DNA of 64,000 nt from Eubacteriales bacterium (lineage in GTDB: Bacteria > Bacillota > Clostridia > Oscillospirales > CAG-382). Under the pieces are notes generated by a model. That model saw nothing but the letters and a program-made list of their open reading frames with translations, ran no database searches and was not told the origin of the DNA. Below, piece after piece: positions 28,924-55,337 of the stretch. Position numbers and translations under genes: made by a program. Positions within the stretch are counted from its first letter, which is position 1, and every line of letters starts with the position of its first letter. Location: the NCBI GenBank assembly GCA_028705495.1, contig JAQWDK010000001.1:223228-287227 (forward strand), in the 5' to 3' direction.

Positions 28924-28958
28924 TATATTGCGCTCCATTCAATGATTATTTTACGAGT

Positions 28959-30569: not shown

Positions 30570-31232
30570 CTAAACCCTTGATTTAAGGACAATTAAATTA
30601 TCTTCAGCAAGAAGTTCAGTTTGTGCGTCAAGAACCGCCATTACATCATCATCACGAATAATTGCGATAATATTAATTCCCTCTGTTTGTCTAAGCCTAA
30701 GTTTTTGTAAACTTTTTCCTAACCACTGTGAATGAGGTTTCATTTCTAAAATGTCGTATTTGTCAGAGCGATGAATATAATCCATTAAATCATTTGTAAT
30801 AAGTCCATATGCAATGCGCTCTCCCATCTCTTTTTCAGGTAAAATTACACGATCTACACCTATTGATTCCAGTATTTGTTTTTGGCGAGGACCATTAGCT
30901 TTCGCTAAAATATAATTTACACCCATTTCTTTAACAATACTTGCAGTAATTGCTGCTGCTTCAAAATCTGCACTGAATGCAATAATAACAACATCAAAAT
31001 TACCAATCCCTATTTTATCTAATGCTGTTTTATCAGATGCATCAGCCAAAAATGCATGGGTTGTATAATCTGAAACTTCTTGTATTATTTGCTCATTTAT
31101 GTCACAGCACAAAACATTAAACCCATTATCGAAAAGAGTTTTCGAGATACTACGACCGAATTTTCCAAGTCCTAAAACTGCAAACTGGGTTGTTCTATTT
31201 ATTTGTATTTTTTTATTTTTTCTTTTCTTCAT
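30570..31232 (-). CDS. ktrA: KtrA/TrkA-type NAD-binding potassium uptake regulator
   Basis: The 220-residue protein has an N-terminal RCK/TrkA-N Rossmann domain (FAVLGLGKFGRSISKTL, then an acidic strand end in LCCDIN) and a C-terminal TrkA-C domain from about residue 140. It gates the membrane subunit encoded just upstream in response to nucleotides. ATG 31232 is preceded by AGAGGA; an in-frame GTG at 31250 lacks one. It is the last gene of the V-ATPase operon, and no clear terminator follows. Confidence 0.88.
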   Translation of the reverse strand: MKKRKNKKIQINRTTQFAVLGLGKFGRSISKTLFDNGFNVLCCDINEQIIQEVSDYTTHAFLADASDKTALDKIGIGNFDVVIIAFSADFEAAAITASIVKEMGVNYILAKANGPRQKQILESIGVDRVILPEKEMGERIAYGLITNDLMDYIHRSDKYDILEMKPHSQWLGKSLQKLRLRQTEGINIIAIIRDDDVMAVLDAQTELLAEDNLIVLKSRV

Positions 31233-31252
31233 GAATAAAGTTCCTCTCACGA

Positions 31253-32674
31253 TTATCCTATCATAACATCCTCTTCGGCATATTGTATAACATCATCACC
31301 GTTGCGGAGACCATTTGACAGTGAAATAATTAATGTTATTGGACCTATACGTCCTACAAACATACAAAGCATCAATACAAATTTACCTATTTCTGATAAA
31401 AAAGGTGTAATTCCTGTACTTAATCCAACTGTACCAAGTGCTGAAGATACTTCAAAAAGCAAATCAGATATATCGTGTGTAAATATAGAATGATTTTCTG
31501 TTATTGAAAGAATTGCAGTACCAGCAAATAACATCAATAGCATTAAAACAGTAATTGTTAAAGACTTTTGTAATGTTAAAACTGATAGTGTTCTCTCAAA
31601 CACAACTATCTTTTTACGACCTTTAATGATTGACCAAACACTACAAAGGATAATGGCGAGGGTTACAGTTTTAATGCCACCAGCTGTCCCCCCTGGAGAA
31701 CCACCGATAAACATATAGAGACTTGAAAATAATTTAGAAACTCCTGTGAGACCGTCCTGTGGGATGGTTGCAAAACCAGCAGTTCTGAGTGTAACTGATT
31801 GGAATAAGGATCTTAATACTTTTTGAAAAAATGGTAGGTTTCCTATTGTTTGGGGATTATTATATTCAAAAGATAAAAAGAAAACAGTGCCTAATATCAA
31901 AAGTGTTACTGTCATAATTAGCGCAAGTTTTGTATGAAGAGAAAAACGACTTCTTTTATTATATTGCCTTGAAAACCAATACCTAATCCTATCAAGTAAA
32001 TCTCTCCAAACAGCGAACCCAATTCCTCCAATTATGATTAGCGTCATAACTACAATATTGATATAAACATTACCTGCATATGGTATTAAGCTTTTCTCAC
32101 CAAGTATATCAAAACCAGCATTGCAAAATGCAGAAACAGAGTGGAATATTCCATAAAATAGAGCATTATACCAAATAACACCTTTATGTAGAAATGAAAA
32201 AAACAGAAATAATGCTCCGATAAGTTCACAAATAAGAGTGCCTTTAATTACAAACATTACCATGCGAACCATTCCGCCAAGAGATAAATTATTGAAAGCT
32301 GCTTGAATAGCAAGTCTACTTTTCAATGAAATTTTCTTTCCGATGTTAACCATAAAAAACGTGAAAATTGAAATCAAGCTTAGTCCACCAATTTGAATTA
32401 AAATCAGGATTACAATTTTTCCGAAAATACTCCATGTAGTTGCAGTAGTAAGAGTAACTAATCCTGTAACACATACGGCAGAAACCGAAGTAAAAAAAGC
32501 ATCAAGAACAGATATGTTTATATTCTGAGCACGCGAAACAGGAAGAGATAGGAGAACACCTCCAATTATAATAATAAGTAAAAAACTTAATGTTATGATT
32601 TGTGCTGGAGAGAGTTTTTTTTGTAGTTTCTTAACTAAGAATGGTGTGCTTAACTCTATTTTTATTTTTGCCAT
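31253..32674 (-). CDS. ntpJ: KtrB/TrkH-type K+ translocating subunit (NtpJ-like)
   Basis: The 473-residue membrane protein has the four-fold M-P-M repeat of Trk/Ktr/HKT transporters. The selectivity-filter glycines are visible in SVSAVCVTGL, SVSAFCNAGF, SVTLRTAGF and SSALGTVGL. It would admit K+, probably driven by Na+ or membrane potential. In Enterococcus hirae the same gene (ntpJ) closes the Na+-ATPase operon. The ktrA-like partner follows 20 bases downstream. Confidence 0.9.
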   Translation of the reverse strand: MAKIKIELSTPFLVKKLQKKLSPAQIITLSFLLIIIIGGVLLSLPVSRAQNINISVLDAFFTSVSAVCVTGLVTLTTATTWSIFGKIVILILIQIGGLSLISIFTFFMVNIGKKISLKSRLAIQAAFNNLSLGGMVRMVMFVIKGTLICELIGALFLFFSFLHKGVIWYNALFYGIFHSVSAFCNAGFDILGEKSLIPYAGNVYINIVVMTLIIIGGIGFAVWRDLLDRIRYWFSRQYNKRSRFSLHTKLALIMTVTLLILGTVFFLSFEYNNPQTIGNLPFFQKVLRSLFQSVTLRTAGFATIPQDGLTGVSKLFSSLYMFIGGSPGGTAGGIKTVTLAIILCSVWSIIKGRKKIVVFERTLSVLTLQKSLTITVLMLLMLFAGTAILSITENHSIFTHDISDLLFEVSSALGTVGLSTGITPFLSEIGKFVLMLCMFVGRIGPITLIISLSNGLRNGDDVIQYAEEDVMIG

Positions 32675-32691: not shown

Positions 32692-33318
32692 TTAAATCTC
32701 TGGCGATATCTCATAATCCTGCATTTTTATCAATCGAGTAACCCTGTCTCTCTCATTATCTTCAAGACGCATTTTTATGAACCGTATTGTTTCTTTCAAC
32801 TGAGGTATTGTCATATATTCCAAAGCGTTTACTCTTCTGCGTGTCTTTTCTAATTCAGCTGAAAGGATAACATAGTGCTTTTCCAGTTGTGCCAGACGCA
32901 AGAAATCCTGAAAAAGCTTCGACATCTTTTGTTTTGTCTCGTTTAAAGCCGGTGAAAGAGAAAAGCTCTTAGTTCTATCCGGCCCAGAGTTTTTAAATGA
33001 CATAATAGGAACGATTACACCCATCTGATTTTTGGATTGTATGTCAACCTCTATCATTGGCTCAGTAATTAGACAACTCGCCAAGATCTCTGTTTGTGAG
33101 AATGCGGATTTTGCAAGTGTCGCTTGATGGTTGATATTTCGGTATTGCTTTTCTACGTTTAAGCGAAGAGATGCTGTTTCTTTAATAATCGCAATAAACT
33201 GCCTCATTAGTTCATCTTGTTTATCTTTAAGGAGCTTATGTCCTCTTTCAGATAACTGAAGTTGCTTTTTTAAACGAGACAGCTCCATGCGTGTAGGACT
33301 TACTGGAAGCAAGCTCAT
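32692..33318 (-). CDS. ntpD: V-type ATPase subunit D
   Basis: The 208-residue subunit D forms the central rotor shaft inside the A3B3 ring. The sequence starts with the family pattern SPTRMELSRLKKQL, and both ends are long helices that pair as a coiled coil, with ALEYMTIPQLKETIRFI near the C-terminus. The start lies four bases after the ntpB stop, so the genes are tightly coupled. Confidence 0.93.
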   Translation of the reverse strand: MSLLPVSPTRMELSRLKKQLQLSERGHKLLKDKQDELMRQFIAIIKETASLRLNVEKQYRNINHQATLAKSAFSQTEILASCLITEPMIEVDIQSKNQMGVIVPIMSFKNSGPDRTKSFSLSPALNETKQKMSKLFQDFLRLAQLEKHYVILSAELEKTRRRVNALEYMTIPQLKETIRFIKMRLEDNERDRVTRLIKMQDYEISPEI

Positions 33319-33321: not shown

Positions 33322-34695
33322 CTACTCCTCTGGCAAATATCGTTCTATTAATTTCGGGGAGATACGCTTTAACTCACTCTTTGGTAAATCAGCGAGAAGC
33401 GACCATCCAAGGTCAAGTGTTTCTTCAATACTACGATTTGTATAAAAGCTTTGGTTTACATATTCTTGTTCAAATCGCACAGCGAAGCGTGCATACGTCT
33501 GATCAATTTCAGATAATGCAGAATCACCTAAAACCACAGCTAACTCTTTCGCTTTCTTACCCTGGGCGTATGCGCTAAATATTTGATTCATAGTTGAAGC
33601 ATGATCTTCACGGGTTTTTCCAACACCGATACCTTTGTCTTTTAACCTTGAAAGCGAAGTCAAAACATCAATAGGCGGTACGATTGCTTTATCATACAAT
33701 GCCCTTGATAATAGAATCTGCCCCTCTGTTATATATCCGGTTAAATCCGGAATCGGGTGGGTGATATCTCCTTCAGGCATAGTTAAAATCGGAATTTGTG
33801 TTATAGAACCGTTTTTGCCTTTAATTCTTCCAGCCCGCTCATATAAAGTAGATAAATTTGTATAAAGATATCCAGGATATCCACGCCTTCCAGGCACTTC
33901 GCGTCTTGCTGCGGATATTTCTCTTAACGCTTCACAGTAGTTTGTCATGTCGCTCATGATAACAAGGACATGCATGTCTTTTTCAAATGCAAGGTATTCT
34001 GCTGCTGTTAGTGCCATTTTAGGAGTAGCAATTCGTTCCATAGCAGGGTCGCTTGCTAAATTCAAAAACATTACTGTGCGATCAATTGCACCTGTCTTTC
34101 GGAAATCTTCTATAAAGAAACTAGCTTCTTCAAAGGTGATACCAATTGCTGCAAAAACAACAGCAAAGCGTTCTTTTGAATTTAAAACCTTTGCTTGACG
34201 GGCAATTTGTGCAGCAAGTTCCTGGTGGGGTAATCCGGATGATGAAAAAATAGGAAGCTTTTGTCCTCTTACAAGCGTATTCAAATGGTCGATAGCAGAA
34301 ATTCCCGTCTGAATAAACTCATCCGGATAGTCTCGTGCTATCGGGTTTATAGCTTCGCCATTGATATCCAATGATTTTTCAGCAACAAAAGGGGGAAGAC
34401 CATCTTTTACTTGTCCTAATCCGTCAAATACACGACCAATCATTTCTGGTGTAACATCAAGAGTGAAGGGGTGTCCTATAAATCTAACTTTTGAATCTCT
34501 TAAATTTATGCCGCCAGTACCTTCAAATATCTGAACCAAAGCTCTCGAGCCGTTTACTTCCAATACTTGACCCTGTCTGACTGTACCGTTTTGCATATGC
34601 ACTTCGATTAGCTCGTCGTACTTTACACCTTCCACGTGCTCAACAGTCATTAAGGGACCGATAACATTTTGTATGCTCTTATAAGTTTTAATCAT
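33322..34695 (-). CDS. ntpB: V-type ATPase subunit B
   Basis: The 457-residue non-catalytic subunit B has the ATPase fold without a P-loop: [18 protein letters not shown] replaces Walker A. It alternates with subunit A in the hexameric head. [20 protein letters not shown] and [11 protein letters not shown] are typical. The gene ends four bases before ntpD and begins one base after ntpA. Length and motifs are complete. Confidence 0.95.
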
Positions 34696-36471
34696 TTATT
34701 TGCTCACCTCTTCGCCCCTTAGGTCGCTGAAATATGATGCAATGGATTGCTTTATATCATCAAATTCAATCAAATCATACTCAGAAATATACTTGCATCG
34801 AGCTATTTTATTTCTTAGATTTAAACTGTTTTCATAAACAGTTAAAAAAGGAATGCCTAATTCTGAAGCTTGTGTTGCGAAGTCCGCAAAGGATTTTATG
34901 ATCGTGAGCATCTTTGATTGCTTTTCTATAGATGAATAAGAGTCAATATCATCAAAAGAGTTTTGTTGCAAATAGTCCTCACGAACAGATTTTGCTACTT
35001 CTAATGTTATACGATCTTTATCAGAAAGCGAATCAACACCTATTAGTCGTACCACTTCTTCTATTCTGGCTTCATCATTTAATATATCTACCATCCATCT
35101 CACCATGACGCTCCAATCAGCCGAAAGAGTATGGTCTACTGCTTTTCTAACCTGGTCGCCGTAAAGAGAGTAAGAGGTAAGCCAATGTATTGCAGGGAAA
35201 TGACGTTGTCTTGCCAATGTCGCATCCAACCCCCAGAATACCTTAACCACGCGCAATGTATTTTGAGTAACAGGTTCCGCTATATCTCCTCCGGGGGGTG
35301 ATACAGCGCTAATAGCAGTAATGCTACCAATGCGTTCGTCTTTTCCTAATGCTCTGACACGACCAGCTCGCTCATAATAATTAGAGATACGGCTTGCAAG
35401 ATATGCAGGATACCCTTCATCACCGGGCATTTCTTGTAAGCGTCCAGACATTTCCCTAAGAGCTTCAGCCCAACGCGAGGTTGAATCAGCCATAATAGCA
35501 ACATTATATCCCATGTCACGGTAGTATTCGGCAATTGTGATACCAGTATAAATGGAAGCCTCTCTGGCTGCAACAGGCATATTTGAAGTGTTCGCAATAA
35601 GAATTGTGCGGTCCATGATTGAGTTGCCTGTACGCGGATCAGTTAGTTTTGGGAATTCATTCATGACATCTGTCATTTCATTTCCTCGTTCTCCGCAACC
35701 CACATATACAACCAAATCGACATCACTCCACTTGGCAATTTGATGCTGAACAACTGTCTTGCCTGCTCCAAAAGGGCCCGGAACTGCTGCAGTTCCACCT
35801 TTCATAACTGGAAACAAGGTATCAATAACTCGTTGACCGGTTATGAGGGGTTCAATTGGATTCAACTTTTCTGAAACAGGGCGAGCATAACGCACAGGCC
35901 ATTTTTGTAGCATTGTCAATTCTTGTTTTTTATCGCCATTGTCTATTAGTACAACAGTTTCTTCAATTGTGCGTAAGCCGTCAAAAATGGCCGTAACCTT
36001 ACCCGAAATACCAAAAGGCACAAGGATTTTATGAATAATCGATGATGTTTCTTGAACGGTTCCTAAAACATCACCCGAAACGACCATATCACCAACAGCG
36101 ACTTGAGAAACAAAATCCCACTTCTTTTGGCGATCTAAGGATGGAACATGTATACCTTTTGTAAGAAAAACACTGCTTGAGTTCTCCATAAAGCGGTCGA
36201 GTGGTCGCTGAATACCATCAAACATCTGAGAAATAAGTCCTGGTCCGAGTTCGACAGACAATGCTTCACCTGTTGAAACTAATGGTTCACCAGGGCCAAT
36301 TCCTGATGTTTCTTCATAAACTTGTACGGAAGCCAAATCGCCCCGCATTTCTATGATTTCACCAATTAGCTTTTTCTCACCGACATGACATACATCTTGT
36401 ATATTTGCATCCTCCATCCCACTTGCAGTTACAAGCGGACCGGAAACTTTTACAATAACACCTGATTTCAA
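34696..36471 (-). CDS. ntpA: V-type ATPase catalytic subunit A
   Basis: The 591-residue catalytic subunit has Walker [18 protein letters not shown], the GERGNEM and [12 protein letters not shown] segments, and the roughly 90-residue non-homologous insert that distinguishes V/A-type A subunits from F-type beta. It hydrolyses ATP to turn the rotor. The start at 36471 lies 18 bases after the ntpG stop. Confidence 0.95.
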
Positions 36472-36489: not shown

Positions 36490-36798
36490 TTAAAGTATAT
36501 TTTGCCCGAGGGCTTTTTCTATCATGCTTTGAATACGTTCCATTCCGATATTATCTTTGCCGGATCCGGGCACCGGAATAATCGTAACATACGGATGTTT
36601 ATCATACATCGTAAGTAGCAATGGCGTATCTGATAAATAATTTTCACTTATAAAAAAAAGACAATATCCAGATTGAATTAACTGTGCAACCTGTCTAAGT
36701 AAGCCAACTCCTTGGGCGGGCTCAAAAACTTCAACACCAATTTGACGAAAGGGAAACATGAAATCATTATCACCCAATGCGGCTATCTTATAACTCAT
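36490..36798 (-). CDS. ntpG: V-type ATPase subunit F (NtpG)
   Basis: The 102-residue protein begins MSYKIAALGDNDFMFPFRQI and includes CLFFISENYL and the conserved PGSGKDNIGMERIQ of subunit F, which binds the rotor shaft. ATG 36798 fits the family; the frame extends upstream into ntpC without reason. It overlaps ntpC by 11 bases. In Enterococcus nomenclature this gene is ntpG. Confidence 0.88.
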   Translation of the reverse strand: MSYKIAALGDNDFMFPFRQIGVEVFEPAQGVGLLRQVAQLIQSGYCLFFISENYLSDTPLLLTMYDKHPYVTIIPVPGSGKDNIGMERIQSMIEKALGQNIL

Positions 36799-37798
36799 AG
36801 TCTTCACGTAGCCTTTCTTCAATTTCATTTTGGTTAGCATTAATTTTTTTAAGAGAAAATATAAGCCGTACATTCTTTATGTCTAGCAGCTTAGCATACA
36901 AAAATGCAAAAAGCGGGAATACCCCGAAGGCTTCGAGCTTTGCTTGCTTACATATATTCAGCAAATAATTATCTATATAAACATCAGAGAGTCTTTGTGC
37001 AGTTTCATCTTTTAGAGACGACCAAAATTCAGAATATGGCGTACTACGCAACAACTCATCCTGTTGTCTTGCAGATGCTAAAAACAGCAATTCAGTATTT
37101 AATTTTAAATTTCCGGTTCTTGCTTTTGAAATAATACTTTTATTTAAAACTATAGAGATTTCTCTTATTTGAAATAAAATAGAAAGCAGATTTAAATCGA
37201 TATAAGTCTTGATAAAATCAGAAATTTTCGGCTCGCCAACCTTTTCGGAGAGAGCCAAAAGCTTAACATGTCCAAAGAACATTAAAATCAGATCGGTTCT
37301 CAAAAATGAGTTATGAATGGCATAATCACTCATAGCATCCTCTATAACGGTTTTTATGCAATTGTCTGTATTAGAAAGCTCTGTATTTGGGGTTTTGAGA
37401 ATATTATTAAAGTACGAATTATCACAACACTCATGGTTTAGATAAAGATAGGTAAGTTTGTTTTGAACATTATCTTTATTGTTTGAAATTTGTTCTCTCA
37501 AAAAAACCTTTATATTGTGTATAAGATCAGGCACTTCAAATATTTCGGCAACAGGAACTCCCGGAGCCATTTCTTTGCTCCAGTTAAGGTAATTACGTTT
37601 TTCTGTTTCAAGAGCCGATTCCAGTTCATTCGAGTGCGTTGGACGCGAAAAGGTTAAAAAACTTGTTCCGTTTAAAATATTTAAAGCCGTTTCTATATTT
37701 TCAGCATTAATGAGTTCTAATTTTTGCTGCTTGGAAAAGAGGGTTGTTTCACGTACTTTCACTAAGGTATTCATTTGAGGGAAAACCTTATTTTCCAT
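36788..37798 (-). CDS. ntpC: V-type ATPase subunit C
   Basis: The 336-residue helical protein is the socket that joins the rotor shaft to the membrane ring (subunit d in other systems). It matches V-ATPase subunit C in length and in segments such as LINAENIETALNILNGT and FGVFPLFAFLYAKLLDIKNV. It sits between ntpE and ntpG as in Enterococcus. Sequence conservation in this subunit is generally low, so context adds much of the certainty. Confidence 0.88.
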   Translation of the reverse strand: MENKVFPQMNTLVKVRETTLFSKQQKLELINAENIETALNILNGTSFLTFSRPTHSNELESALETEKRNYLNWSKEMAPGVPVAEIFEVPDLIHNIKVFLREQISNNKDNVQNKLTYLYLNHECCDNSYFNNILKTPNTELSNTDNCIKTVIEDAMSDYAIHNSFLRTDLILMFFGHVKLLALSEKVGEPKISDFIKTYIDLNLLSILFQIREISIVLNKSIISKARTGNLKLNTELLFLASARQQDELLRSTPYSEFWSSLKDETAQRLSDVYIDNYLLNICKQAKLEAFGVFPLFAFLYAKLLDIKNVRLIFSLKKINANQNEIEERLREDYEL

Positions 37799-37810: not shown

Positions 37811-38413
37811 TTAACCAATAAATTGTTTTAACAACGCTGGGGATTCTTTTTTCTTGATTTCACTCAGCATATCTTTAAACAAAAAGCTGAACTCTATCGG
37901 AAATTGCTCCAAAATAAACCCACCTTGATTAGGTATGGTTTTGTTTGTAATCAAAATGCTGTAATTATCCGTTTTAAACTCAAGTCTTTTTCGCTCATCA
38001 GAAGAGAGCTTTTGGGCGGTAATCTGTCCTAAAATTACTTTATATTCGCCAGTCAATTGTAAATTAGCAATCGAGTTCTGAAAAAATTTAAAGAAAGAAT
38101 CCGAGGACATTTCGCAAAGCACGGTTTCTGCTTCTAAAAAGAGTTGGTCTATCAATTTTAAAGCAAATCGTGTTTTTTCTTTGCTTAACTTCTCCGAATG
38201 TTGCCTAATTGCATTTTGCTTTCTTAGCTGGCTTTGTTTTTCGATTTGCTCTTTATGGTGTAAAAACATCTCGTCAAATTTGCCGTTTACTTTAGAACGC
38301 TCAATGCGAGCATTTTCAAGTGCTTCATTAAGAAGCATATGGGCTTCATTGTGAGCTTCATTAATAATATATTGAATAAGATTATTGAGTGAATTTTGCA
38401 TCTGTTTTTCCAT
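37811..38413 (-). CDS. ntpE: V-type ATPase subunit E
   Basis: The 200-residue protein has a long charged N-terminal helix (NEAHNEAHMLLNEALENARI) and a compact C-terminal domain with GGFILEQFPIEFSF, as in peripheral stalk subunit E. It pairs with the product of the first gene (subunit G/H) to form the stator. The gene lies one base from ntpK and 12 bases from ntpC. Confidence 0.88.
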   Translation of the reverse strand: MEKQMQNSLNNLIQYIINEAHNEAHMLLNEALENARIERSKVNGKFDEMFLHHKEQIEKQSQLRKQNAIRQHSEKLSKEKTRFALKLIDQLFLEAETVLCEMSSDSFFKFFQNSIANLQLTGEYKVILGQITAQKLSSDERKRLEFKTDNYSILITNKTIPNQGGFILEQFPIEFSFLFKDMLSEIKKKESPALLKQFIG

Positions 38414-38414: not shown

Positions 38415-40826
<2,412 letters not shown>

Positions 40827-40846
<20 letters not shown>

Positions 40847-41165
40847 TTAAGTTCATCACCTTCCCGACCAAAAACTCAAGTATATCTTCTTTTTTAGCAA
40901 AAAATGATTTTTTCATTGAATCGGTTTCTTCATCATAAATTTTATCCATCAGTGCTAATTGACGGATAATGCTGTCTTTTTCTTCTTGCAGCATTTTGTC
41001 TCTTAAACTTTTAATTTGATCGTTGTAGCTATTTTCTGTTTTTTTTATTTCTTTACTTAATTCGTCTTTTATTTTCAAAATTTGCTCTTTAGTACTAAAA
41101 ATGATGGAATCTCCATCTTGCTCAGCTTTTTTTATAGCTTCAAGCGTTTTGTTCAAAATAATCAC
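40827..41165 (-). CDS. ntpF: V-type ATPase stator subunit (NtpF-like, subunit G/H)
   Basis: The 112-residue protein is almost entirely one charged coiled coil (KTLEAIKKAEQDGDSIIFST, KDELSKEIKKTENSYND). That matches the stator helix subunit that pairs with subunit E. It is the first gene of the operon, as ntpF is in Enterococcus. TGAGGTGA lies upstream of the start. Its identity depends on composition and place more than on specific residues. Confidence 0.8.
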
Positions 41166-41177
41166 CTCAATGAATAG

Positions 41178-41243
41178 AAAAAAGCATTATACTCCAAAGC
41201 GTTTTTCTCACCCCAGAAAAACAAAGCCTTGAAAGTATAATGC
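41178..41243 (-). promoter_or_regulatory. Leader hairpin with T-run: probable attenuator of the ntp operon
   Basis: On the minus strand GCATTATACT (41243-41234) pairs perfectly with AGTATAATGC (41193-41184). A second stem GTTTTTCT/AGAAAAAC lies inside, and six T follow at 41183-41178. The structure lies between the consensus promoter and the first gene. It can act as an intrinsic terminator within the leader, so readthrough would have to be regulated. No known riboswitch could be assigned by eye. Confidence 0.75.
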
Positions 41244-41296
41244 CCAATACTTTATTTGCATAACACCCAACACGAACTAATTATTTAATTTTATTT

Positions 41297-41325
41297 ATTA
41301 TACAGCAAGTAGATAAATATGTCAA
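41297..41325 (-). promoter_or_regulatory. Perfect consensus promoter of the ntp-ktr operon
   Basis: On the minus strand TTGACA (41325-41320) and TATAAT (41302-41297) are 17 bases apart. Transcription would start near 41290 and produce a leader of about 125 bases ending in the attenuator hairpin. Confidence 0.9.
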
Positions 41326-41502
41326 GTTTTTTACGAATTAAACTCCCTAAATTTTGCTAGACAGTTTTTTGCTCAATCCTCTATTCTTTACAACTCCTTT
41401 TACAGTGAGCGTAACAATAACCGTGCCCTTCAGACAGGTCGTCATAATAATATAATCAAGAAATTTTCATTCTAGTTCGTTTTGAGTGTACATGCAATAA
41501 AA

Positions 41503-41610
41503 ACTGGCGCTGCACATCTAAGAACAGAAATCGGAACCGGCGCTGTCATTTGCTTGGCATCTGACGTTTTACCAATAGACAAAAAGTACTGGTATCTACT
41601 TGTCGCTTGA
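41503..41610 (+). pseudogene. C-terminal remnant of a DUF4143 ATPase
   Basis: The frame TGAAHLRTEIGTGAVICLAS followed by DVLPIDKKYWYLLVA and TGA closely matches the last 35 residues of ATPase copy 2 (TAHLKTNIGTGAVICLASDI). No start or upstream domain is present. It shows that a member of this family once occupied the space between the V-ATPase operon and the AraC gene. Confidence 0.88.
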
Positions 41611-41660
41611 TTTTGTGCTCTTTCTTTCATTTTAACTTTACAGAGCCAATAAGCGTAAAA

Positions 41661-41684
41661 AAAGCACCTCTATAGAGATGCTTT
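41661..41684. terminator. Bidirectional terminator hairpin
   Basis: AAAGCA (41661-41666) and TGCTTT (41679-41684) flank the palindrome CTCTATAGAG. A T-run follows on the minus strand and a weaker one (GTATTTTTA) on the plus strand. It can serve both the ATPase remnant and the minus-strand genes above it. Confidence 0.7.
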
Positions 41685-41751
41685 GTATTTTTAGTTATTA
41701 TTTTTTATATATTTTGACTCACAATTGAAAGATTGCGTGGCGATAGGTTAT

Positions 41752-41987
41752 CTATGGTTTTATATAAGCATATCCTTCACTCTGTTTTACAACAAGTTCT
41801 AATACTCCAGCTGGAACGGTATCTACGAAATGAATAATGTTATATTTATCTATATTATTAGCCATTAGTGCATTGTTACAAGCAACAAACTTTACACCTT
41901 TTGTATTTAAACTTTCCATAGTATTAATGTCTGCACCTAAATCTTGAGTAGTATCATAATACTTAACTGCCTCTGAATTCGGGTTAC
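41752..41987 (-). pseudogene. C-terminal fragment of a DsrE-family protein
   Basis: Directly after the AraC stop the minus strand reads SEAVKYYDTTQDLGADINTM, SLNTKGVKFVACNNAL and PAGVLELVVKQSEGYAYIKP in one frame to TAG. This is the back half of a DsrE/YchN-like small protein of the type linked to sulfur relay, including the conserved cysteine in VACNNAL. The N-terminal half is missing at the joint with the AraC gene. An unusual fusion or readthrough product is unlikely because the AraC gene ends in its own stop in another frame. Confidence 0.75.
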
Positions 41988-42878
41988 TTAAGGGGTATGG
42001 CTTCTTACCTCAGAGGGGGTAAGTCCAATAGTTTTTTTAAATAGCCTGTTAAACAGAGTTGTGTTGTTAAATCCCGACTCATGTGATATACAATCAATCG
42101 TCATATTTGTTGTTGTCAGGAGTTCACGAGCGTGGTTGATTCGTTTAAGGTTAATGTAATCCCAAGGAGACAACCCCATCATTCTTTTAAACAGTGTTCC
42201 AAAATATGTTTGACTGAAACCAGCTATCTGAGACAGTTTTTCCAACGTCAAAGGTTCGGAAAAATGGTTTTCAATATAATCAATTGCACGGTTAATATAA
42301 AGAAATTTTTCATATGTAAGCGGATATGTTTTAGTATTTTCTTTTTCGGGTCCGAAATGCCGTATAAAGCAAGTCAGGACTTCGAATATATGAAGTTTTA
42401 TCATGGTTTCAAAGGAATCTTTTTGCTCTATGAATTCACGTTCGATTTTGAGCATTAAATTAGCGATATGCTTTGTTATAGGGGAATCTGCGGAAAAACG
42501 GTTCTCGAAAGTTTTTTCAAGGTTGGAGAAAATCTCCATAACGCGCCTGCTTGAGATAATATTTTCGCACATCCATAAAAAGCGGGGATCAATATGGATG
42601 TTCATAATGTGCATTTCATCCGGTTCAAGAATCTCTGTAATGTAGTGTTCCTCGTTGGTACTGAAAAAAAAGATGTCTCCAGTTTTTATCTCATATATAT
42701 GCCCTTTGGTTTTGTAAAAACCGCAGCCTTGCTTAAAAAAGGATATCTCAATACTGGTATGATAATGCTTTCTCAAATACCGAGTCTGCGGTAGTACAAG
42801 TGAATTATATAACCGTATGCTTTCATAATTTGAATTCAAATTGAGATTTGAATATAATTTATACTCGCTTGCAATCAT
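41988..42878 (-). CDS. AraC-family regulator with cupin sensor domain
   Basis: The 296-residue protein has an N-terminal cupin-like sugar-sensing domain (RYLRKHYHTSIEISFF, GDIFFFSTNEEHYI) and a C-terminal pair of helix-turn-helix motifs (LEKLSQIAGFSQTYFGTLFK, CISHESGFNNTTLFNRLF). ATG 42878 follows GGAGG closely. It is divergent from the dehydratase gene at 43072 and probably activates that cluster in response to a sugar or sugar acid. The C-terminus (LTPSEVRSHTP) is complete although a decayed gene is fused behind it. Confidence 0.88.
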   Translation of the reverse strand: MIASEYKLYSNLNLNSNYESIRLYNSLVLPQTRYLRKHYHTSIEISFFKQGCGFYKTKGHIYEIKTGDIFFFSTNEEHYITEILEPDEMHIMNIHIDPRFLWMCENIISSRRVMEIFSNLEKTFENRFSADSPITKHIANLMLKIEREFIEQKDSFETMIKLHIFEVLTCFIRHFGPEKENTKTYPLTYEKFLYINRAIDYIENHFSEPLTLEKLSQIAGFSQTYFGTLFKRMMGLSPWDYINLKRINHARELLTTTNMTIDCISHESGFNNTTLFNRLFKKTIGLTPSEVRSHTP

Positions 42879-43071
42879 ATGACCTCCGGTGTTCTGTTTA
42901 AATAATAAATAGTGTGATAGTGTGCATTTACGTAGGATAGTTTGTAGACATTCCAATAAATGTGTGTTATATTGTTGTTGTTAAATGATACATTACTTTT
43001 TATGATTAGTCAAGATTTGAATAGTAACATACCGCTTTTCAATATAATAAAGTTGATCGGGGTAAATAAAA

Positions 43072-44445
43072 ATGAGTAAGCTAATTGGAAATACATGCTG
43101 TGATAATGTAGATCAAAATTCATCTCCGTCAGAGCTGAAAATTACGGATATACGGACAGCACATATAACAGGCTCGCCGAAGAACTGTGTTTTAATAAAG
43201 ATAATGACAAATCAGGGGATCGTCGGATACGGCGAGGTTCGTGACGCTTCCAGTAAAAATTATGCTTTGATGCTTAAAAGCCGTCTTTTGGGTGAGAATC
43301 CTTGCAATGTAGATAAAATATTTCATAAAATTAAGCAGTTCGGCGGTCATTCCCGTCAGGGCGGCGGTGTATCGGGAATCGAAATCGCATTATGGGACCT
43401 TGCCGGAAAGGCATGGAATGTTCCTTTATGGCAGATGCTCGGCGGTAAGTTCAGAGATAAAGTGCGCGTTTACGGTGACACGGACGTTGACGGAAAACAT
43501 TCGGGAAGAGATATGGGGCTTGTGCTTAAAAAGCGTATGGATCTTGGTTTTACACTCCTGAAGATGGACCTCGGTATCGGTCTTTTGATGGACGTACCCG
43601 GTACAATAAACGCACCTCTCGGATTTATGGACGAAATGAAACAGTACGCATCTCATATTCTAAATGTGCAGAGCGGCTCAGTTTCATCGGAAATGGTTCG
43701 CAAACAAAAAAGCTACGATATCATTAATACGGCTCATCCATTTACAGGCATACATATTACGGAAAAAGGCTTGGATTACCTCGAAGATTACATAAAACAA
43801 GCTCGTGAAGTCGTCGGTTATGATATACCAATTGCAATAGATCATTTCGGTCATGTCTGTGTAGAGGATGCGATTCGCTTTGCGCGCAGAATTGAAAAGT
43901 ACAATATTGCTTGGATGGAGGACATGGTTCCGTGGATTTTCCCCGATCAGCTTGCACGTTTGAAAAGATCGACTACCATACCGGTATGTACGGGGGAAGA
44001 CATTTATCTTAAAGAGAATTTCCAAAAAATCATAGACCTTGATACCGTTTCGGTCATTCATCCCGACATACTTACCTGCGGCGGTGCGCTGGAGCTGAAA
44101 AAGATCGCCGATTATGCCGACGAACATGGTGTGGCAGTTGCGGTTCACATGGCTGAAAGTCCGATTGCCTGTATGGCTGCGGTACATACAGCGGCAGCGA
44201 TGCATAATAATCTGGCGGTTGAGTTCCATTCAGTCGATTGCCCTTGGTGGGGTGATATGGTTACAGGATTACCGAAGCCAATAATTCAGGACGGGTTTAT
44301 AACCGTTCCCGATAAACCGGGACTCGGTATTGACGAGCTTTGCGACGATGTTATCCGTGAGCACATAAATCCCAAAGACCCCGGTGTATGGGAGCCGACT
44401 ACGATTTGGGATAACGAATTTTCCAACGACAGAATTTGGAGCTAA
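43072..44445 (+). CDS. Enolase-superfamily sugar-acid dehydratase (mandelate racemase type)
   Basis: The 457-residue protein has the capping domain and barrel of mandelate racemase-type enzymes. Metal ligands are D257 (AIDHFG), E283 (AWMEDM) and E309 (CTGED). K164/D166 in LLKMDLG and H359 in AVHMAES are the likely acid/base residues. Such enzymes abstract the proton next to a carboxylate and usually dehydrate aldonic or uronic acids to 2-keto-3-deoxy acids. An insert of about 70 residues (166-235) sits between strands. It is the first gene of the catabolic cluster; the substrate is unknown. Confidence 0.85.
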   Translation: MSKLIGNTCCDNVDQNSSPSELKITDIRTAHITGSPKNCVLIKIMTNQGIVGYGEVRDASSKNYALMLKSRLLGENPCNVDKIFHKIKQFGGHSRQGGGVSGIEIALWDLAGKAWNVPLWQMLGGKFRDKVRVYGDTDVDGKHSGRDMGLVLKKRMDLGFTLLKMDLGIGLLMDVPGTINAPLGFMDEMKQYASHILNVQSGSVSSEMVRKQKSYDIINTAHPFTGIHITEKGLDYLEDYIKQAREVVGYDIPIAIDHFGHVCVEDAIRFARRIEKYNIAWMEDMVPWIFPDQLARLKRSTTIPVCTGEDIYLKENFQKIIDLDTVSVIHPDILTCGGALELKKIADYADEHGVAVAVHMAESPIACMAAVHTAAAMHNNLAVEFHSVDCPWWGDMVTGLPKPIIQDGFITVPDKPGLGIDELCDDVIREHINPKDPGVWEPTTIWDNEFSNDRIWS

Positions 44446-44509
44446 AAAGGAGAGGAATTAGCGTGAAATTTAACTCAGATATAATCTAACTACGATGTAT
44501 TCACGCCTC

Positions 44510-44560
44510 GAAATTCAATAAATTGAATTTCATTGATTTTTTGTACAGTCGCTTTGCGAC
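44510..44560. repeat. Intergenic palindromic hairpins (REP-like)
   Basis: GAAATTCAAT (44510-44519) and ATTGAATTTC (44522-44531) are a perfect inverted repeat with an AA loop, followed by ATTGATTTTTTG. A second hairpin GTCGC-TTT-GCGAC lies at 44548-44560. A strong binding site (AAGGAGAGG, 44447-44455) upstream leads only to a nine-codon frame (GTG 44463 to TAA 44489), so the insert appears to separate it from the real gene. Confidence 0.65.
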
Positions 44561-44575
44561 AGAATGGAATTTATT

Positions 44576-45478
44576 ATGCAGTTTAACAATAGAGAAGAAA
44601 TCATCGCGCTGACTCCCAAGTGGAAGGGTGAACGTCTTCCGGACGGAAGACCATATGTTGAAGATAAATACCTTAAAGCTCTTCACGGAATGACACTTGA
44701 AGAGGTTTGGAAACCGATTTTCGTACTTGGTTATGAGAGCCAGTTTGAAGGGCGCTTGAAAACTCTACATAATGACGGCAGAAAGCTTGTAGGCAGAGCG
44801 GTTACCTGCACATTCTGTCCGACGCGCCCCGACCTTCACGAGGTTGCTTTTGAAACAGGTGCTGCGGAAGGCAGAAAAGGGAATTACAATCAATGGGTAA
44901 TCGACAGCCTTGTTGAAGGGGATGTTGTTGTTGCCGATATGTATGATAAAATTTATAAGGGTACTTTCCTTGGCGGTAACCTGACGACAGCTATCGCTAC
45001 CAAAACAAAAACCGGCGGTGGCGTAATCTGGGGCGGTGTGCGTGATGTTGAACAGATGGAAAAGGTACCGGGAGTCCAGGTTTATTACCGCGGAATTGAC
45101 CCGACACCGATTCGCGACTTCATAATGACGGGCTTCAATACCGTAACACGAATCGGAAACGCGGTCTGCCTGCCAGGTGATATAGTTTTCGGCGCGGGCG
45201 GCGGCGTTCTGTTCATCCCTTGCCATCTTGTTGCGGATGTTGTTGAAGGTGCGGCAAAAACACATGTTAAGGACGATTTCGGCTTTGAAATGATAGGTCA
45301 GAATAAGTTCACAACAGCCCAGATTGACAAAAACACATGGACTGAATCTATGCTCGATATGCTGATGGCTTTTATAAAGAACGATCCGCGCGGAGAGGCC
45401 TATCGTGATCTTGACTGGTCGAAGGAATACGACTTAGCGAGAAACGGTGACCCGAATGATACGCAGACTGCACTTTAA
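44576..45478 (+). CDS. RraA-like aldolase/decarboxylase family protein
   Basis: The 300-residue protein belongs to the RraA/HMG-aldolase fold: AVTCTFCPTRPDLHE, the substrate loop FLGGNLTTAIATKTKTGG, and GVIWGGVRDVEQM with the conserved R-D pair that binds substrate and Mg2+. RraA-type enzymes cleave or decarboxylate 2-keto acids to give pyruvate. The start is ATG 44576 (MQFNN) or ATG 44564; neither has a good binding site. Together with the upstream dehydratase it could split a 2-keto-3-deoxy acid. Confidence 0.82.
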   Translation: MQFNNREEIIALTPKWKGERLPDGRPYVEDKYLKALHGMTLEEVWKPIFVLGYESQFEGRLKTLHNDGRKLVGRAVTCTFCPTRPDLHEVAFETGAAEGRKGNYNQWVIDSLVEGDVVVADMYDKIYKGTFLGGNLTTAIATKTKTGGGVIWGGVRDVEQMEKVPGVQVYYRGIDPTPIRDFIMTGFNTVTRIGNAVCLPGDIVFGAGGGVLFIPCHLVADVVEGAAKTHVKDDFGFEMIGQNKFTTAQIDKNTWTESMLDMLMAFIKNDPRGEAYRDLDWSKEYDLARNGDPNDTQTAL

Positions 45479-45490
45479 TTTGGAGTTATT

Positions 45491-46186
45491 ATGAAAATCA
45501 CTTGGATTGGACAAAGCGGTTATTTACTTCAGGACGGGGGCACAAAAATTCTGATTGATCCTTACCTTTCTGATGTTGTAAGCCGCGTTGCAAACAGACC
45601 GCGCATGATTGCCCCGCCTTTTTTGCCAAAGGATTTCAGAGGTGATGCGGTTTTTTGTACACACGACCATCTTGATCATCTTGACCCGGATTCAATCGCA
45701 GAATTCGATAAAAATATGCTTTTTGTCGCTCCACCTTCGTGCGAAAAGCATCTTGTGGAACTCGGTTGCAATAAGAGAAGTATAATTGATGTTGGTGATT
45801 TTATAAACGTAAATAACTTTACCGTCACAGCGGTCGCTGCTTTTCATACAATCCAAGCAATCGGATTAGTGGTCCACTGGAATGGCTATTGTTTATATTT
45901 TACATCTGATACGCTTTACGACAAACGCCTTGAAGACATGCAAAAATATAAACCCGATATCCTTTTTATCTGTATCAACGGTAAGTTAGGAAACATGGAT
46001 GTTGATGAAGCTGTAAGAGTTACAAAAGCAATCAACCCGAAAGCTGCGGTTCCTACTCATTACGGTATGTTTGAGAGCAACACCGAAGACCCGAAAAAGT
46101 TTACTTCACAGCTGTCTAACGGCTTTGAAATGGAATTTAATACTGCTTATGAAATTGAAACAATCTCAAAAGCGGTAGGAAGGTAA
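45491..46186 (+). CDS. Metallo-beta-lactamase-fold hydrolase (UlaG-like)
   Basis: The 231-residue protein starts MKITWIGQSGYLL and has the metal motif THDHLDHLD (H58, H60, D62, H63), then AFHTIQAIG, TSDTLYD and VPTHYGMF as later ligand motifs. This compact form is typical of UlaG-like lactonases and related metal-dependent hydrolases. In this cluster it could open a sugar lactone. It follows the RraA-like gene by 12 bases. Confidence 0.85.
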   Translation: MKITWIGQSGYLLQDGGTKILIDPYLSDVVSRVANRPRMIAPPFLPKDFRGDAVFCTHDHLDHLDPDSIAEFDKNMLFVAPPSCEKHLVELGCNKRSIIDVGDFINVNNFTVTAVAAFHTIQAIGLVVHWNGYCLYFTSDTLYDKRLEDMQKYKPDILFICINGKLGNMDVDEAVRVTKAINPKAAVPTHYGMFESNTEDPKKFTSQLSNGFEMEFNTAYEIETISKAVGR

Positions 46187-46192
46187 GAAGTT

Positions 46193-46942
46193 ATGACGAT
46201 TTTTTCACTTGAAGGAAAGCGCGCGCTCATTACCGGTTCAAGCCGTGGGATTGGTTCCTCGATAGCAACTGAATTGGCAAAAGCGGGTGCAAGAATTATT
46301 CTGCACTGCTCGGGTGATACAACAAAAGCAGAAGAAGTTAAAGCAGAAATTGAAAAATGCGGCGGAATTGTAGATAATATCATTTCTGCTGACCTAAAAA
46401 AACCCGAAAATACAATAAAAATCGCCAGACTTGCCGGCAACATCGACATATTGGTATTAAACGCTTCCATCCAATACAGAAAGAAATGGGATGAAATAAC
46501 GACCGAGGAGTTTAATGAGCAGCTCAGCTGCAACCTTTTATCCTCGATGCGCCTTATACAGTATTTTGTTCCGTATATGCGCGAAAAGAAGTGGGGACGT
46601 ATTATTACAATAGGAAGCGTTCAGGAAGTAAAGCCGCACCCCGATATGCTGGTTTATTCCGCATCAAAAGCAGCCCAGACAAATATGGTAAAATCACTTG
46701 CTTTACAGCTCGCAGGTGATGGTATTACCGTTAATAATGTTGCTCCGGGTGTAATAAGTACGGACCGCAATGCCGAAGCCCTTAGCAATCCGGAGTATGC
46801 AAAAAAAGTCATCGATTCAATTCCAGCAGGTTTCTGCGGGGATAAATCAGAATGTTCAGGCACAGTACTTTTACTTAGCTCAGAAGCGGGCAGATATATT
46901 ACAGGTCAAAGTATATATGTAGATGGTGGCAAGAGTCTATAA
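46193..46942 (+). CDS. Short-chain dehydrogenase/reductase
   Basis: The 249-residue protein is a classical SDR: cofactor loop TGSSRGIGSSIATEL, NAS-type segment LVLNASIQYR, and catalytic S142, Y155 and K159 (YSASK). It ends with GQSIYVDGGKSL. It would oxidise a sugar to its lactone or reduce a keto intermediate with NAD(P). It starts seven bases after the hydrolase gene, so both are in one operon. The substrate cannot be read from the sequence. Confidence 0.9.
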   Translation: MTIFSLEGKRALITGSSRGIGSSIATELAKAGARIILHCSGDTTKAEEVKAEIEKCGGIVDNIISADLKKPENTIKIARLAGNIDILVLNASIQYRKKWDEITTEEFNEQLSCNLLSSMRLIQYFVPYMREKKWGRIITIGSVQEVKPHPDMLVYSASKAAQTNMVKSLALQLAGDGITVNNVAPGVISTDRNAEALSNPEYAKKVIDSIPAGFCGDKSECSGTVLLLSSEAGRYITGQSIYVDGGKSL

Positions 46943-46968
46943 ATTTTAGTAAAAAGGTGGGTCTTATA

Positions 46969-48327
46969 ATGAATAACAGAAGAAATACGGTTTTGAAATT
47001 GTTTGATGAAAACAGCGAGTATTATAAAGAAAGAGTCAATTACGGCATCGAACTTTATCGAAAAGGGTATAATACTATAATGTTTGTTGACCGTGAGGGC
47101 AAACCAGTCAATGATGTAAAGTTTACTATTAAACAAAAATCGCATGATTACAAATTCGGATGCAACATTTTTATGCTTGATGAGTTTGAGCTTGAGGAAA
47201 AAAATGCTCAGTACCGTAAGGTCTTCGGTGAAACTTTTAATTATGCGATTGCACCCTTTTACTGGAAAGATCTCGAGCCGGAAAAAGGCAAACCCCGTTA
47301 TGACAAGAACAGTCCGAAGATATATCGCCGCCCGGCGCCTGACCTTGTAGTAGAATACTGCAAAGAAAAGAATATCGATATTAAGGCTCATTGTATTGTA
47401 TACGATGCCTTTGCGCCTTCTTGGTTGCCGCGCGAAGTTCCGCTGATTAAAAAAGAATATGAGAAACACATGGCAGAGCTCAGCGCGCGTTACAGCGATC
47501 ATATAGATGACTGGGAAATCATAAACGAGACGATGAACTGGGAAACTTATGGTTATTCAAGACTCGGTACTACCACATTTTTTAGCGAACCTGATTATGA
47601 AACCTGGAGCTATTTCTGTGCTCGCAGAAACTTCCCTAAAAACAACCTGCTCATCAACGCCGGTCCATGCGAAGCATGGTCGGACAGACGGACTCGCTCA
47701 CATTATTATTATCAGCTTGAAGCGCTTGCATCAAAAGGTGTTAAATATGATGGAATTGGTATGCAGTCCCATATTTTTGTAGACAGACAAAACGAAGCAG
47801 CGTTTTTCGCAAAATACTTCAATCCGGTAAAGATGTATGATGTGCTTGATACCTACGAACATTTCGGTGTACCGATCAATATTTCTGAGCTTACAATTCC
47901 ATCGTATAACGGAGGCGCTGAGGACGAGGAGGTTCAGGCAGAAGAATTAAGGCTTCTGTACAGCTTGTGGTTCAGTCATAAAGCGACAGATCAGATAGAC
48001 TATTGGAATTTCGTTGATGGTTACTCTTATGTTCCTGGTGGTGGGAAGTCAACACTCGGCGATCCGAATGCGGGTGAAAATATTTACGGTGGGGGCTTGT
48101 TACGCTTTGATATGACACTAAAACCAGCATTGAAAGAACTCCAGAGACTAATAAACAAGGAATGGCATACTGAGCTTTCCTCAGAAACAGGTTCGTCTAA
48201 CAGAGCAAAGTTCAAAGGATTCTATGGAAAATACGATATGACCTTTGTTTATAATGGTAAAGAAAAACACACAGAATTTCATCTTGATAAACGCGCAGAT
48301 ATGGAGCATATCATCGTCTGCGATTAG
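46969..48327 (+). CDS. GH10-family glycoside hydrolase, cytoplasmic
   Basis: The 452-residue protein has the GH10 pattern: acid/base E187 in DDWEIINETMNW, nucleophile E307 in INISELTIPS, and the GIGMQSHIF and YWNFVDG segments. GH10 enzymes are mostly endo-beta-1,4-xylanases. There is no signal peptide, so it would act on imported oligosaccharides inside the cell. The first 60 residues (DREGKPVNDVKFTIKQK) form a small beta domain. ATG 46969 has AGGTGG upstream. It ends the catabolic cluster, convergent with the radical SAM gene. Confidence 0.85.
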   Translation: MNNRRNTVLKLFDENSEYYKERVNYGIELYRKGYNTIMFVDREGKPVNDVKFTIKQKSHDYKFGCNIFMLDEFELEEKNAQYRKVFGETFNYAIAPFYWKDLEPEKGKPRYDKNSPKIYRRPAPDLVVEYCKEKNIDIKAHCIVYDAFAPSWLPREVPLIKKEYEKHMAELSARYSDHIDDWEIINETMNWETYGYSRLGTTTFFSEPDYETWSYFCARRNFPKNNLLINAGPCEAWSDRRTRSHYYYQLEALASKGVKYDGIGMQSHIFVDRQNEAAFFAKYFNPVKMYDVLDTYEHFGVPINISELTIPSYNGGAEDEEVQAEELRLLYSLWFSHKATDQIDYWNFVDGYSYVPGGGKSTLGDPNAGENIYGGGLLRFDMTLKPALKELQRLINKEWHTELSSETGSSNRAKFKGFYGKYDMTFVYNGKEKHTEFHLDKRADMEHIIVCD

Positions 48328-48339
48328 ACATAACCCAAA

Positions 48340-49239
48340 CTACAACACTGGATAAATCTCATTCAGTCTTAGCACGCGGTTCATATTATTCAGGACCTTC
48401 TTTTTGTCCGCACTCCATAGCGGTGCAAGGAGGTCCTTTTTTGCGCCGTCGCCTGTCAGTCGGTGGACTACAACCGAATCAGGCAAAATTTTCAGCGCAT
48501 CTGCGATTATTTGGTAGTATTCATCCGCCTTAAGAACCTCAAAATCTCCTCGGCGGTAGCTCTCGGCAAGAGCAGTACCCTCTATAACATGAAGTAGCTG
48601 TAGCTTGATGCCATCTGTACATTGCCCGACATAAGCGGTAGTTTCAAGCATATCCTGATGGCTTTCTCCCGGAAGTCCAAAAATGACATGTGTGATGCGG
48701 TGGATGTTCAGTTTCTTTAGCTCGTCCATCGCTCTTTTATATACATCCAAAGAATAACACCGGTTGATACGCTTTGCCGTTTCTTCATGTATCGTTTGCA
48801 GTCCAAGCTCAACCCAAAGGGGTTTTAGCCTTGAAAGTCGCTCGAGCATAGCGATCGCATTTTCTCCCAAACAGTCGGGTCTGGTGGCGATTGAAAGCCC
48901 AACAATTTCAGGATGCTCCACTGCCTGCAAATAAATCTGTTCCAAGTGCGCAAGGTCGCCATGTGTTCCAGTAAAACTCTGGAAATAGGCGATATATCTA
49001 AGCCCCTCACCTTTATTTCCAAGCCGCTTTTTAGCATCTTCGATCTGTTTATTTAGCGGTAGAACTGCTGGTGCTGCAAAATCCCCCGAGCCGTCGGCGG
49101 AGCAGAAAACACAACCGCCAAAACCTACTGTACCATCGCGATTTGGACAAGTTGTTGCCGCGGAAAGTGAGAGCTTATAAACCTTACAGCCAAAGATACG
49201 GCGGCAGTATGCATTTGCGCTGATATATTCTTTAGACAT
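48340..49239 (-). CDS. Radical SAM protein, YhcC-like (TIGR01212 type)
   Basis: The 299-residue protein shows the radical SAM iron-sulfur site in CPNRDGTVGFGGCVFC, with the long C-x10-C-x2-C spacing of the YhcC subfamily. IATRPDCLGENAIAML, WVELGLQTIHEETAKRINR and HVIFGLPGES follow. The reaction is unknown; relatives are widespread and resemble tRNA-modifying Elp3-like enzymes. It is convergent with the GH10 gene and appears monocistronic. Confidence 0.88.
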   Translation of the reverse strand: MSKEYISANAYCRRIFGCKVYKLSLSAATTCPNRDGTVGFGGCVFCSADGSGDFAAPAVLPLNKQIEDAKKRLGNKGEGLRYIAYFQSFTGTHGDLAHLEQIYLQAVEHPEIVGLSIATRPDCLGENAIAMLERLSRLKPLWVELGLQTIHEETAKRINRCYSLDVYKRAMDELKKLNIHRITHVIFGLPGESHQDMLETTAYVGQCTDGIKLQLLHVIEGTALAESYRRGDFEVLKADEYYQIIADALKILPDSVVVHRLTGDGAKKDLLAPLWSADKKKVLNNMNRVLRLNEIYPVL

Positions 49240-49354
49240 AATAACCCCAGAGTTTGATTTATGAAGAAATAGAAAAACATCTTACACTCTATATTACTAT
49301 ACAATCAGCGTAAATTCAAGATTATTCAGGCAGTACATAGCTTAAAACTAACCG

Positions 49355-49383
49355 TTGCTATTTGTCAATATTTGTGTTATTAT
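49355..49383 (+). promoter_or_regulatory. Probable promoter of the structured leader
   Basis: TTGCTA (49355-49360), a 17-base spacer and TATTAT (49378-49383) would start transcription near 49390, at the foot of the hairpin that follows. Confidence 0.5.
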
Positions 49384-49393
49384 AAATCCATAG

Positions 49394-49472
49394 AGCCTAT
49401 AGTGATCGATCCTTTTCGAATTGTAGCGATGCAGCTCAATTCCAACGCTGAATCGTTACTATGGGCTGTTTT
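49394..49472 (+). ncRNA. Structured leader with terminator-like end
   Basis: AGCCTATAGT (49394-49403) pairs over ten positions (one U-G) with ACTATGGGCT (49458-49467), followed by GTTTTTATT. Between them GAATTG and CAATTC form a second stem, so the whole is a branched fold of about 75 bases. It lies between a likely promoter and the gene at 49517, where it could act as attenuator or RNA sensor. It fits no riboswitch I can name. Confidence 0.5.
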
Positions 49473-49516
49473 TATTATGACGGACGCAGTCAAAAACGAT
49501 TAACGGGAGGCTTTAA

Positions 49517-50005
49517 ATGTTATACGCTGGTTATCCAGATGCCGACACCAAGAATATATTCGTTGAAGAAACTGAAGACCCCAAGCGTATCCGTTGCATT
49601 GACAATAGCTTCACGAACCGCAGCAGTTGCGTTGGTTATTGCATACATTACAATCATCCAGGATATTTGACAAAAAAATTAGCAGGCACACATAAATGTC
49701 ACGAGAAGGAATGCGCATTCTTTTATTATATAAGAAGCGAACTTAAGCAGCCTAAGGAAAAAGCAGAGCCGATTGATGAGAACATTGTTGATCAAATAAC
49801 AAAACTGACGAGTGCTTATGAAGGTATGCGTATCATGAATATTGAGTCAGAAGGTGACGACAAATACAAAGTTACTTATATTTCAATTGCACATTATAAT
49901 TTAGAACATGTTTCAAAACATATAAAACTGAAAACAGGCAAAGAGATTATAATGCGCAGGATAGATGCTGATTACGATGAATGCGTAAGACTAATATTCG
50001 GGTAA
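49517..50005 (+). CDS. Uncharacterised Cys-rich protein
   Basis: I cannot assign this 162-residue protein. Its N-terminal half has five cysteines (C27, C38, C42, C61, C66) and histidines in a metal-site-like arrangement (SCVGYCIHYNHPGYL, KLAGTHKCHEKECAFF). The C-terminal half is a mixed alpha/beta domain with VTYISIAHYNLEHVSKHIKL. GGGAGG lies upstream of ATG 49517. It is followed 13 bases later by an acetyltransferase gene. Zinc or iron-sulfur binding is an inference. Confidence 0.65.
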   Translation: MLYAGYPDADTKNIFVEETEDPKRIRCIDNSFTNRSSCVGYCIHYNHPGYLTKKLAGTHKCHEKECAFFYYIRSELKQPKEKAEPIDENIVDQITKLTSAYEGMRIMNIESEGDDKYKVTYISIAHYNLEHVSKHIKLKTGKEIIMRRIDADYDECVRLIFG

Positions 50006-50018
50006 CAACGAGGTAACT

Positions 50019-50453: not shown

Positions 50454-50471
50454 AACTTACAGGAGAAACCT

Positions 50472-52307: not shown

Positions 52308-52393
52308 ATGATAAATCATTCAATCTCGAAGTTTGTTTCTTTCGTGCCGTAAGCAAGGCGCGAATCGCAAAGAGCGCGAACGAAACAAACTTC
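52303..52393. repeat. Pair of intergenic inverted repeats
   Basis: ATTGAATGAT (52303-52312) and ATCATTCAAT (52315-52324) form a perfect stem with an AA loop overlapping the stop codon. GAAGTTTGTTTC (52328-52339) and GAAACAAACTTC (52382-52393) form a second, larger perfect stem around an inner GC-rich hairpin. The layout recalls 44510-44560: an AA-loop stem followed by a CTTTTGCGA-like hairpin region. Confidence 0.7.
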
Positions 52394-52427
52394 CAGGTTG
52401 CTAAGTAATAGAGAGAGGGTTATAACA

Positions 52428-53339: not shown

Positions 53340-53365
53340 AAATCTAATTCGATCGGAGAAGCTTT

Positions 53366-54616: not shown

Positions 54617-54630
54617 GGGAAGTGAAAACC

Positions 54631-55325: not shown

Positions 55326-55337
55326 GAAACTGGAATC

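Follow-up and report, generated by a model that had tools for sequence, protein, structure and literature searches.

Na+-I riboswitches bind Na+ with a KD of ~2-15 mM, reject other alkali ions, including K+ and Li+, and turn on the genes that they precede, according to White et al. 2022 (PMC9337991). Their aptamer combines a P1 stem with a UUG/CAA base and a UU bulge with a P2 stem carrying a GGGGUG loop, and a terminator that excludes the aptamer gives ON logic. The class is found with genes of Na+ biology, and in enterococci and clostridia it has already been reported with V-type ATPase genes (PMC9337991). In Enterococcus faecalis, the EF1492 leader was flagged by Term-seq (PMC9337991), and EF1492-1500, a homologous ntp operon with EF1492 as its first gene, is upregulated ~6-fold in 6.5% NaCl (PMC3995695). 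The kind of system described below is therefore already known. In the tested Na+-I riboswitch of C. acetobutylicum kefB, the terminator disrupts P2 as it forms (PMC9337991). The nhaA-I (Li+-I) riboswitch has a similar two-hairpin outline (PMC9646797).

Here we analyzed a 64,000-nucleotide stretch of a clostridial genome (the window) containing an ntp-ktr operon. We consider it about 90% probable that the leader of this operon is a transcription-terminating Na+-I riboswitch that is genetically ON with Na+; from sequence comparison and RNA folding, we infer that it binds Na+, terminates transcription and regulates the operon. The leader adds another case to a riboswitch class and a V-ATPase arrangement that are already known, including in enterococci. 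Apparently new are two details: a terminator, in this leader and most ntp relatives, that is predicted to break P1 and keep P2, where those of most other Na+-I aptamers compared break P2, and a U in place of an almost invariant G.

A Na+-type V-ATPase operon behind a consensus promoter

The genes of the operon are nearly gapless, all on the minus strand, and follow the order NtpF-like, I, K, E, C, G, A, B, D, KtrB, KtrA:

40827..41156, minus strand: NtpF-like first gene, small coiled subunit; position and N-terminus resemble ntpF of relatives, no family above cut-off
38903..40846, minus strand: NtpI, V-ATPase subunit I (PF01496)
38415..38879, minus strand: NtpK rotor subunit (2bl2, E = 2e-61; Na+ ligands kept)
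37811..38413, minus strand: NtpE (weak: NF003049, 24.5 bits, below cut-off)
36788..37798, minus strand: NtpC (PF01992)
36490..36873, minus strand: NtpG, ATP-synt_F (PF01990)
34696..36471, minus strand: NtpA catalytic subunit (NF003220)
33322..34695, minus strand: NtpB (NF003235)
32692..33318, minus strand: NtpD (PF01813)
31253..32674, minus strand: KtrB/NtpJ K+ uptake channel (PF02386; TIGR00933 above cut-off)
30570..31250, minus strand: KtrA regulatory subunit (PF02254 and PF02080)

The nearest solved structure to NtpK is the rotor ring of the E. hirae Na+-ATPase (2bl2). All five Na+ ligands (L61, T64, Q65, Q110 and E139, E. hirae numbering) are retained, which supports Na+ coupling of the pump. 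This set does not single out the operon, because it is common to nearly all V-ATPases compared, and it proved useless as a marker of aptamer-bearing operons. A distant second V-ATPase subunit I gene is present in the genome (L113, G000:C47:52933-54075, minus strand; 30% identity to the NtpI studied).

The minus strand also carries every element of the leader:

41320..41325, minus strand: -35 box TTGACA (12/12 matches together with the -10 box, spacer 17)
41297..41302, minus strand: -10 box TATAAT (promoter scan)
41202..41272, minus strand: putative Na+-I riboswitch aptamer (RF03071, DUF1646 motif; Rfam covariance model, 38.4 bits, E = 1e-6)
41258..41270, minus strand: P1 5' strand, the anti-terminator strand, UUGGGUGUUAUGC (minimum-energy structure of a transcript that stops at 41199; Rfam alignment)
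41229..41243, minus strand: P1 3' strand with the UU bulge and conserved CAA, shared as the terminator 5' arm (Rfam alignment, folding)
41201..41222, minus strand: P2 hairpin with the conserved GGGGUG loop, in aptamer and terminator folds alike (Rfam alignment, folding)
41182..41245, minus strand: intrinsic terminator hairpin, ~-29 kcal/mol, with P2 at its tip (folding)
41178..41183, minus strand: U-run of the terminator, TTTTTT (sequence)
41162..41168, minus strand: ribosome binding site GAGGTGA, upstream of the likely TTG start at 41156-41154 (sequence)

TTGACA-17-TATAAT is the sole sigma-70-type site with 12 of 12 matches within the scanned 16 kb (40000-56000), in agreement with the perfect consensus promoter that a sequence-only reading of the window had called. 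The same reading placed a 125-base leader behind this promoter; a leader does follow, but it measures ~135 nt from the probable transcription start at ~41290, as judged from the promoter position, to the likely TTG start. Among relatives, a consensus promoter ahead of the aptamer is commoner than in shuffles, with at least 10 of 12 matches in 38% vs 8% of cases, yet far from universal.

The long hairpin with perfect 10-bp outer arms, an inner stem and six T that had been read from the letters is fully borne out. The arms GCATTATACT (41243-41234) and AGTATAATGC (41193-41184) are 10 nt long and perfectly complementary, and the inner stem, GUUUUUCU-GGGGUG-AGAAAAAC, spans 41222-41201. Folding of 41290-41160 yielded z = -4.63 relative to dinucleotide shuffles, none of the 200 being as stable. 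What had been described as an inner stem is the aptamer helix P2, folded in both states, and the segment directly 5' of the hairpin (41273-41246), absent from the earlier reading, joins a second, mutually exclusive fold.

The leader matches the Na+-I riboswitch family

The covariance search proposed with the sequence-only reading singled out the Na+ family RF03071: when 301 nt were scanned against Rfam at a permissive threshold (E up to 10), the leader matched this family at E = 1e-6, and no other family fell below E = 2.4. The score lies ~2 bits short of the curated (gathering) cut-off (38.4 vs 40.5 bits), which is a threshold for automatic annotation and not a biological feature of the class. 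A default Rfam scan, which applies this cut-off, returned no match at the leader, and annotation pipelines have likely missed it because of its sub-threshold score. The ntp leaders of Tetragenococcus (39.8 bits), Fundicoccus (39.5 bits) and Vagococcus elongatus (37.5 bits) narrowly miss the cut-off as well. Across the organism's own genome, the runner-up to the leader in the RF03071 search reached 15.5 bits. An independent covariance model (R1), built from 12 relatives with the studied leader excluded, matched 41202-41247 (minus strand) at 34.4 bits (E = 2.4e-6 in 1.1 Mb). The marks of the class, namely P1 with its UUG/CAA base and UU bulge and P2 with its GGGGUG loop, are all present in the unconstrained minimum-energy fold, and the position of the aptamer upstream of a Na+-type V-ATPase operon matches the class context of Na+ transport and Na+-gradient genes.

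The leader departs from the class described in PMC9337991 at aptamer position 1 (41272), where it has U instead of G. G occupies this position in 36/36 ntp relatives and in almost all members of a set of 26 other aptamers, a count that covers only correctly read sequences and leaves out the mis-cut locus L128; one of the 26, L132, scores above the cut-off and has A. The GG before P1, conserved in all 36 ntp relatives and in almost all the other aptamers, accordingly reads UG in the leader and AG in L132. Elsewhere in the aptamer, P1 pair 8/20 and P2 pair 38/53 (alignment A1, read by eye) are both C-G in relatives and U-A in the leader, which are two-sided changes. No close orthologue of the leader was found in the family or order (394 genomes of the order, among which only its own has an NtpI of matching kind at E <= 1e-90).

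The near invariance of position 1 elsewhere and the score under the cut-off would suit a decayed riboswitch, in which the G-to-U change has lost or weakened Na+ binding and the terminator sets a fixed, low readthrough. We regard decay as unlikely, since P1 and P2 pairing is maintained through two-sided changes, the strand exchange described below is still nearly perfect, and L132 shows that an above-cut-off aptamer can have A at this position. Furthermore, the leader has intact versions of two conserved elements, CAA and the GGGG loop, and mutating these elements is known to abolish the response to Na+ (PMC9337991).

The leader might instead sense another signal, such as c-di-AMP, K+, Li+ or a leader-binding protein. 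The operon includes K+ uptake genes, and c-di-AMP is known to target KtrA-type proteins and K+ transport. Yet the c-di-AMP riboswitch model RF00379 has no match at E <= 0.001 in the leader or anywhere else in the genome, the nhaA-I (Li+-I) model does not match the leader even at E = 10 despite the similar outline, and rejection of K+ and Li+ is a property of Na+-I aptamers (PMC9337991), which together make a different signal very improbable. For its attenuator, the sequence-only reading had suggested Na+, K+ or c-di-AMP as the signal; the attenuator and its Na+ option agree with the RF03071 match, the ON-switch logic and the operon content, and K+ and c-di-AMP find no support. Least credible of all is an ordinary terminator without a switch, for example one insulating the operon from upstream transcription, a reading that a hairpin and U-run before the first gene would suit. 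Against it, the perfect promoter lies upstream of the hairpin with nothing coding in between, and the leader matches an aptamer that holds a conserved place in 36 relatives.

The predicted aptamer and terminator folds share one strand of P1

Growing transcripts were folded for their minimum-energy structure (prefix folding). Up to 41199, the predicted fold is the aptamer as in the Rfam drawing, including the UU bulge and P2. In P1, 41270-41268 pair with 41229-41231 and 41267-41258 with 41234-41243, with the UU bulge at 41233-41232 and one U-U mismatch. By 41181, the terminator had replaced P1. The two folds are mutually exclusive, as both require strand 41243-41229; with this P1 strand common to aptamer and terminator, Na+ should therefore switch the operon ON.

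The leader contains two UUGGG strands 23 nt apart. Used as the P1 5' strand, the outer copy gives a P1 of -7.8 kcal/mol. The inner copy (41247-41243), preferred by R1, was rejected for this role, since it brings together non-pairing positions and has no stable fold (0.0 kcal/mol alone); R1 favors it because the model was built mainly from short-loop members.

We propose that RNA polymerase starts near 41290 and that the aptamer would fold first, forming P1 (41270-41258 with 41243-41229) and P2 (41222-41201). With Na+ bound, P1 would retain its own 3' strand, the terminator would be blocked and the ntp-ktr operon would be transcribed. At low Na+, strand 41200-41182 would invade P1 and capture its 3' strand, and the long hairpin so formed, which encloses P2 and leads into six U, would stop transcription. 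We thus infer regulated readthrough of the operon, which at high cell Na+ would yield a Na+-exporting V-ATPase together with a K+ uptake system. By this logic, the cell would make the pump when it is needed. The reading would give the control of this Na+-ATPase and K+ uptake operon, from an experimentally unstudied organism, a concrete signal and mechanism.

Two predicted types of expression platform

Comparison of homologous ntp leaders, also suggested with the sequence-only reading, recovered the same aptamer in the same place: R1 finds it in 36 of 80 other ntp loci, always directly upstream of ntpF, and in 8 of 10 relatives tested the aptamer at this position passes the Rfam cut-off. In the studied leader and in 33 of the 36 ntp relatives, formation of the terminator disrupts P1 but leaves P2 in place, as seen in Enterococcaceae and Carnobacteriaceae ntp leaders (e.g. 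L020, L021, L074 and L039); the E. faecalis EF1492 leader is not in this count. Leaders of these two families differ from the studied one in having a short P1 and a short loop, with both P1 strands entering the terminator, whereas the studied leader uses an additional UUGGG strand further upstream for pairing and shares just the 3' strand with the terminator. Its long P1, which above the bulge runs for the length of 10 pairs and includes one mismatch, and its 14-nt loop also distinguish it from the Na+-I riboswitch as described in PMC9337991.

In contrast to kefB, whose terminator consumes P2 (PMC9337991), the terminator of the studied leader competes with P1. The kefB arrangement prevails among the other Na+-I aptamers of the same class and order, which are mostly clostridial: 29 of 31 terminators use the P2 loop and 3' strand and thereby break P2. 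Two non-ntp aptamers in Lactobacillales genomes, L158 and L157, the latter upstream of a gene for a P-type cation ATPase, have P1-breaking terminators too, and this pair of cases gives only a hint that the split tracks lineage more than gene. No description of a P1-breaking platform was found in the main text of PMC9337991. The split raises a testable question, namely how a single small ion aptamer can operate both platforms. A further Na+-I aptamer, from a different genome of this class (L125, 109-165, plus strand), has a P2-breaking terminator and lies ~0.7 kb upstream of a ktrB-like gene.

Origin of the operon

In a quick NtpI tree, in which the root is arbitrary and loci L001 and L002 are copies of the studied window, the studied NtpI groups with two Oscillospiraceae-labelled MAGs, L018 and L019 (support 100), and this group joins Lactobacillales. 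V-ATPases of the same family fall in another clade. The aptamer was found neither in L018 and L019, the nearest NtpI relatives, nor at the same-family V-ATPases of that other clade. Together with the single NtpI of matching kind in the order, this patchiness makes it likely, as far as sequence distribution can tell, that the operon was acquired horizontally along with its leader.

A broader scenario, which we hold at slightly below even odds, would comprise two platforms, one P2-breaking in most clostridia and the other P1-breaking and P2-wrapping in Lactobacillales and the studied operon. The second type would have entered a clostridial genome horizontally with the pump operon, where P1 would have been rebuilt through a second upstream UUGGG, giving a simple three-strand exchange.

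In the closest relative operon (L018, a Papillibacter MAG), the leader (176-300, plus strand) combines a promoter-like site with a small GC hairpin but contains no Na+ aptamer. In the window, signs of a conjugative element, a PrgI-family protein and a TraG/VirB4-like ATPase (24221-26918, plus strand), lie ~4 kb from the operon's downstream end and fit lateral movement in the region. The window also contains a group II intron (17776-18466, plus strand; RF02004 domains at 176.7 bits, RF00029 at 52.6 bits), a ParE-type toxin with an antitoxin-like partner (23579-24152), and a HipA split over two ORFs (Couple_hipA 28346-28678, HipA_C 27405-28349) with a HipB-like helix-turn-helix protein (27405-28938, minus strand). 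Adjoining ktrA is a bacterial sugar transferase fragment that retains only the C-terminal half (30041-30274, plus strand), likely a pseudogene.
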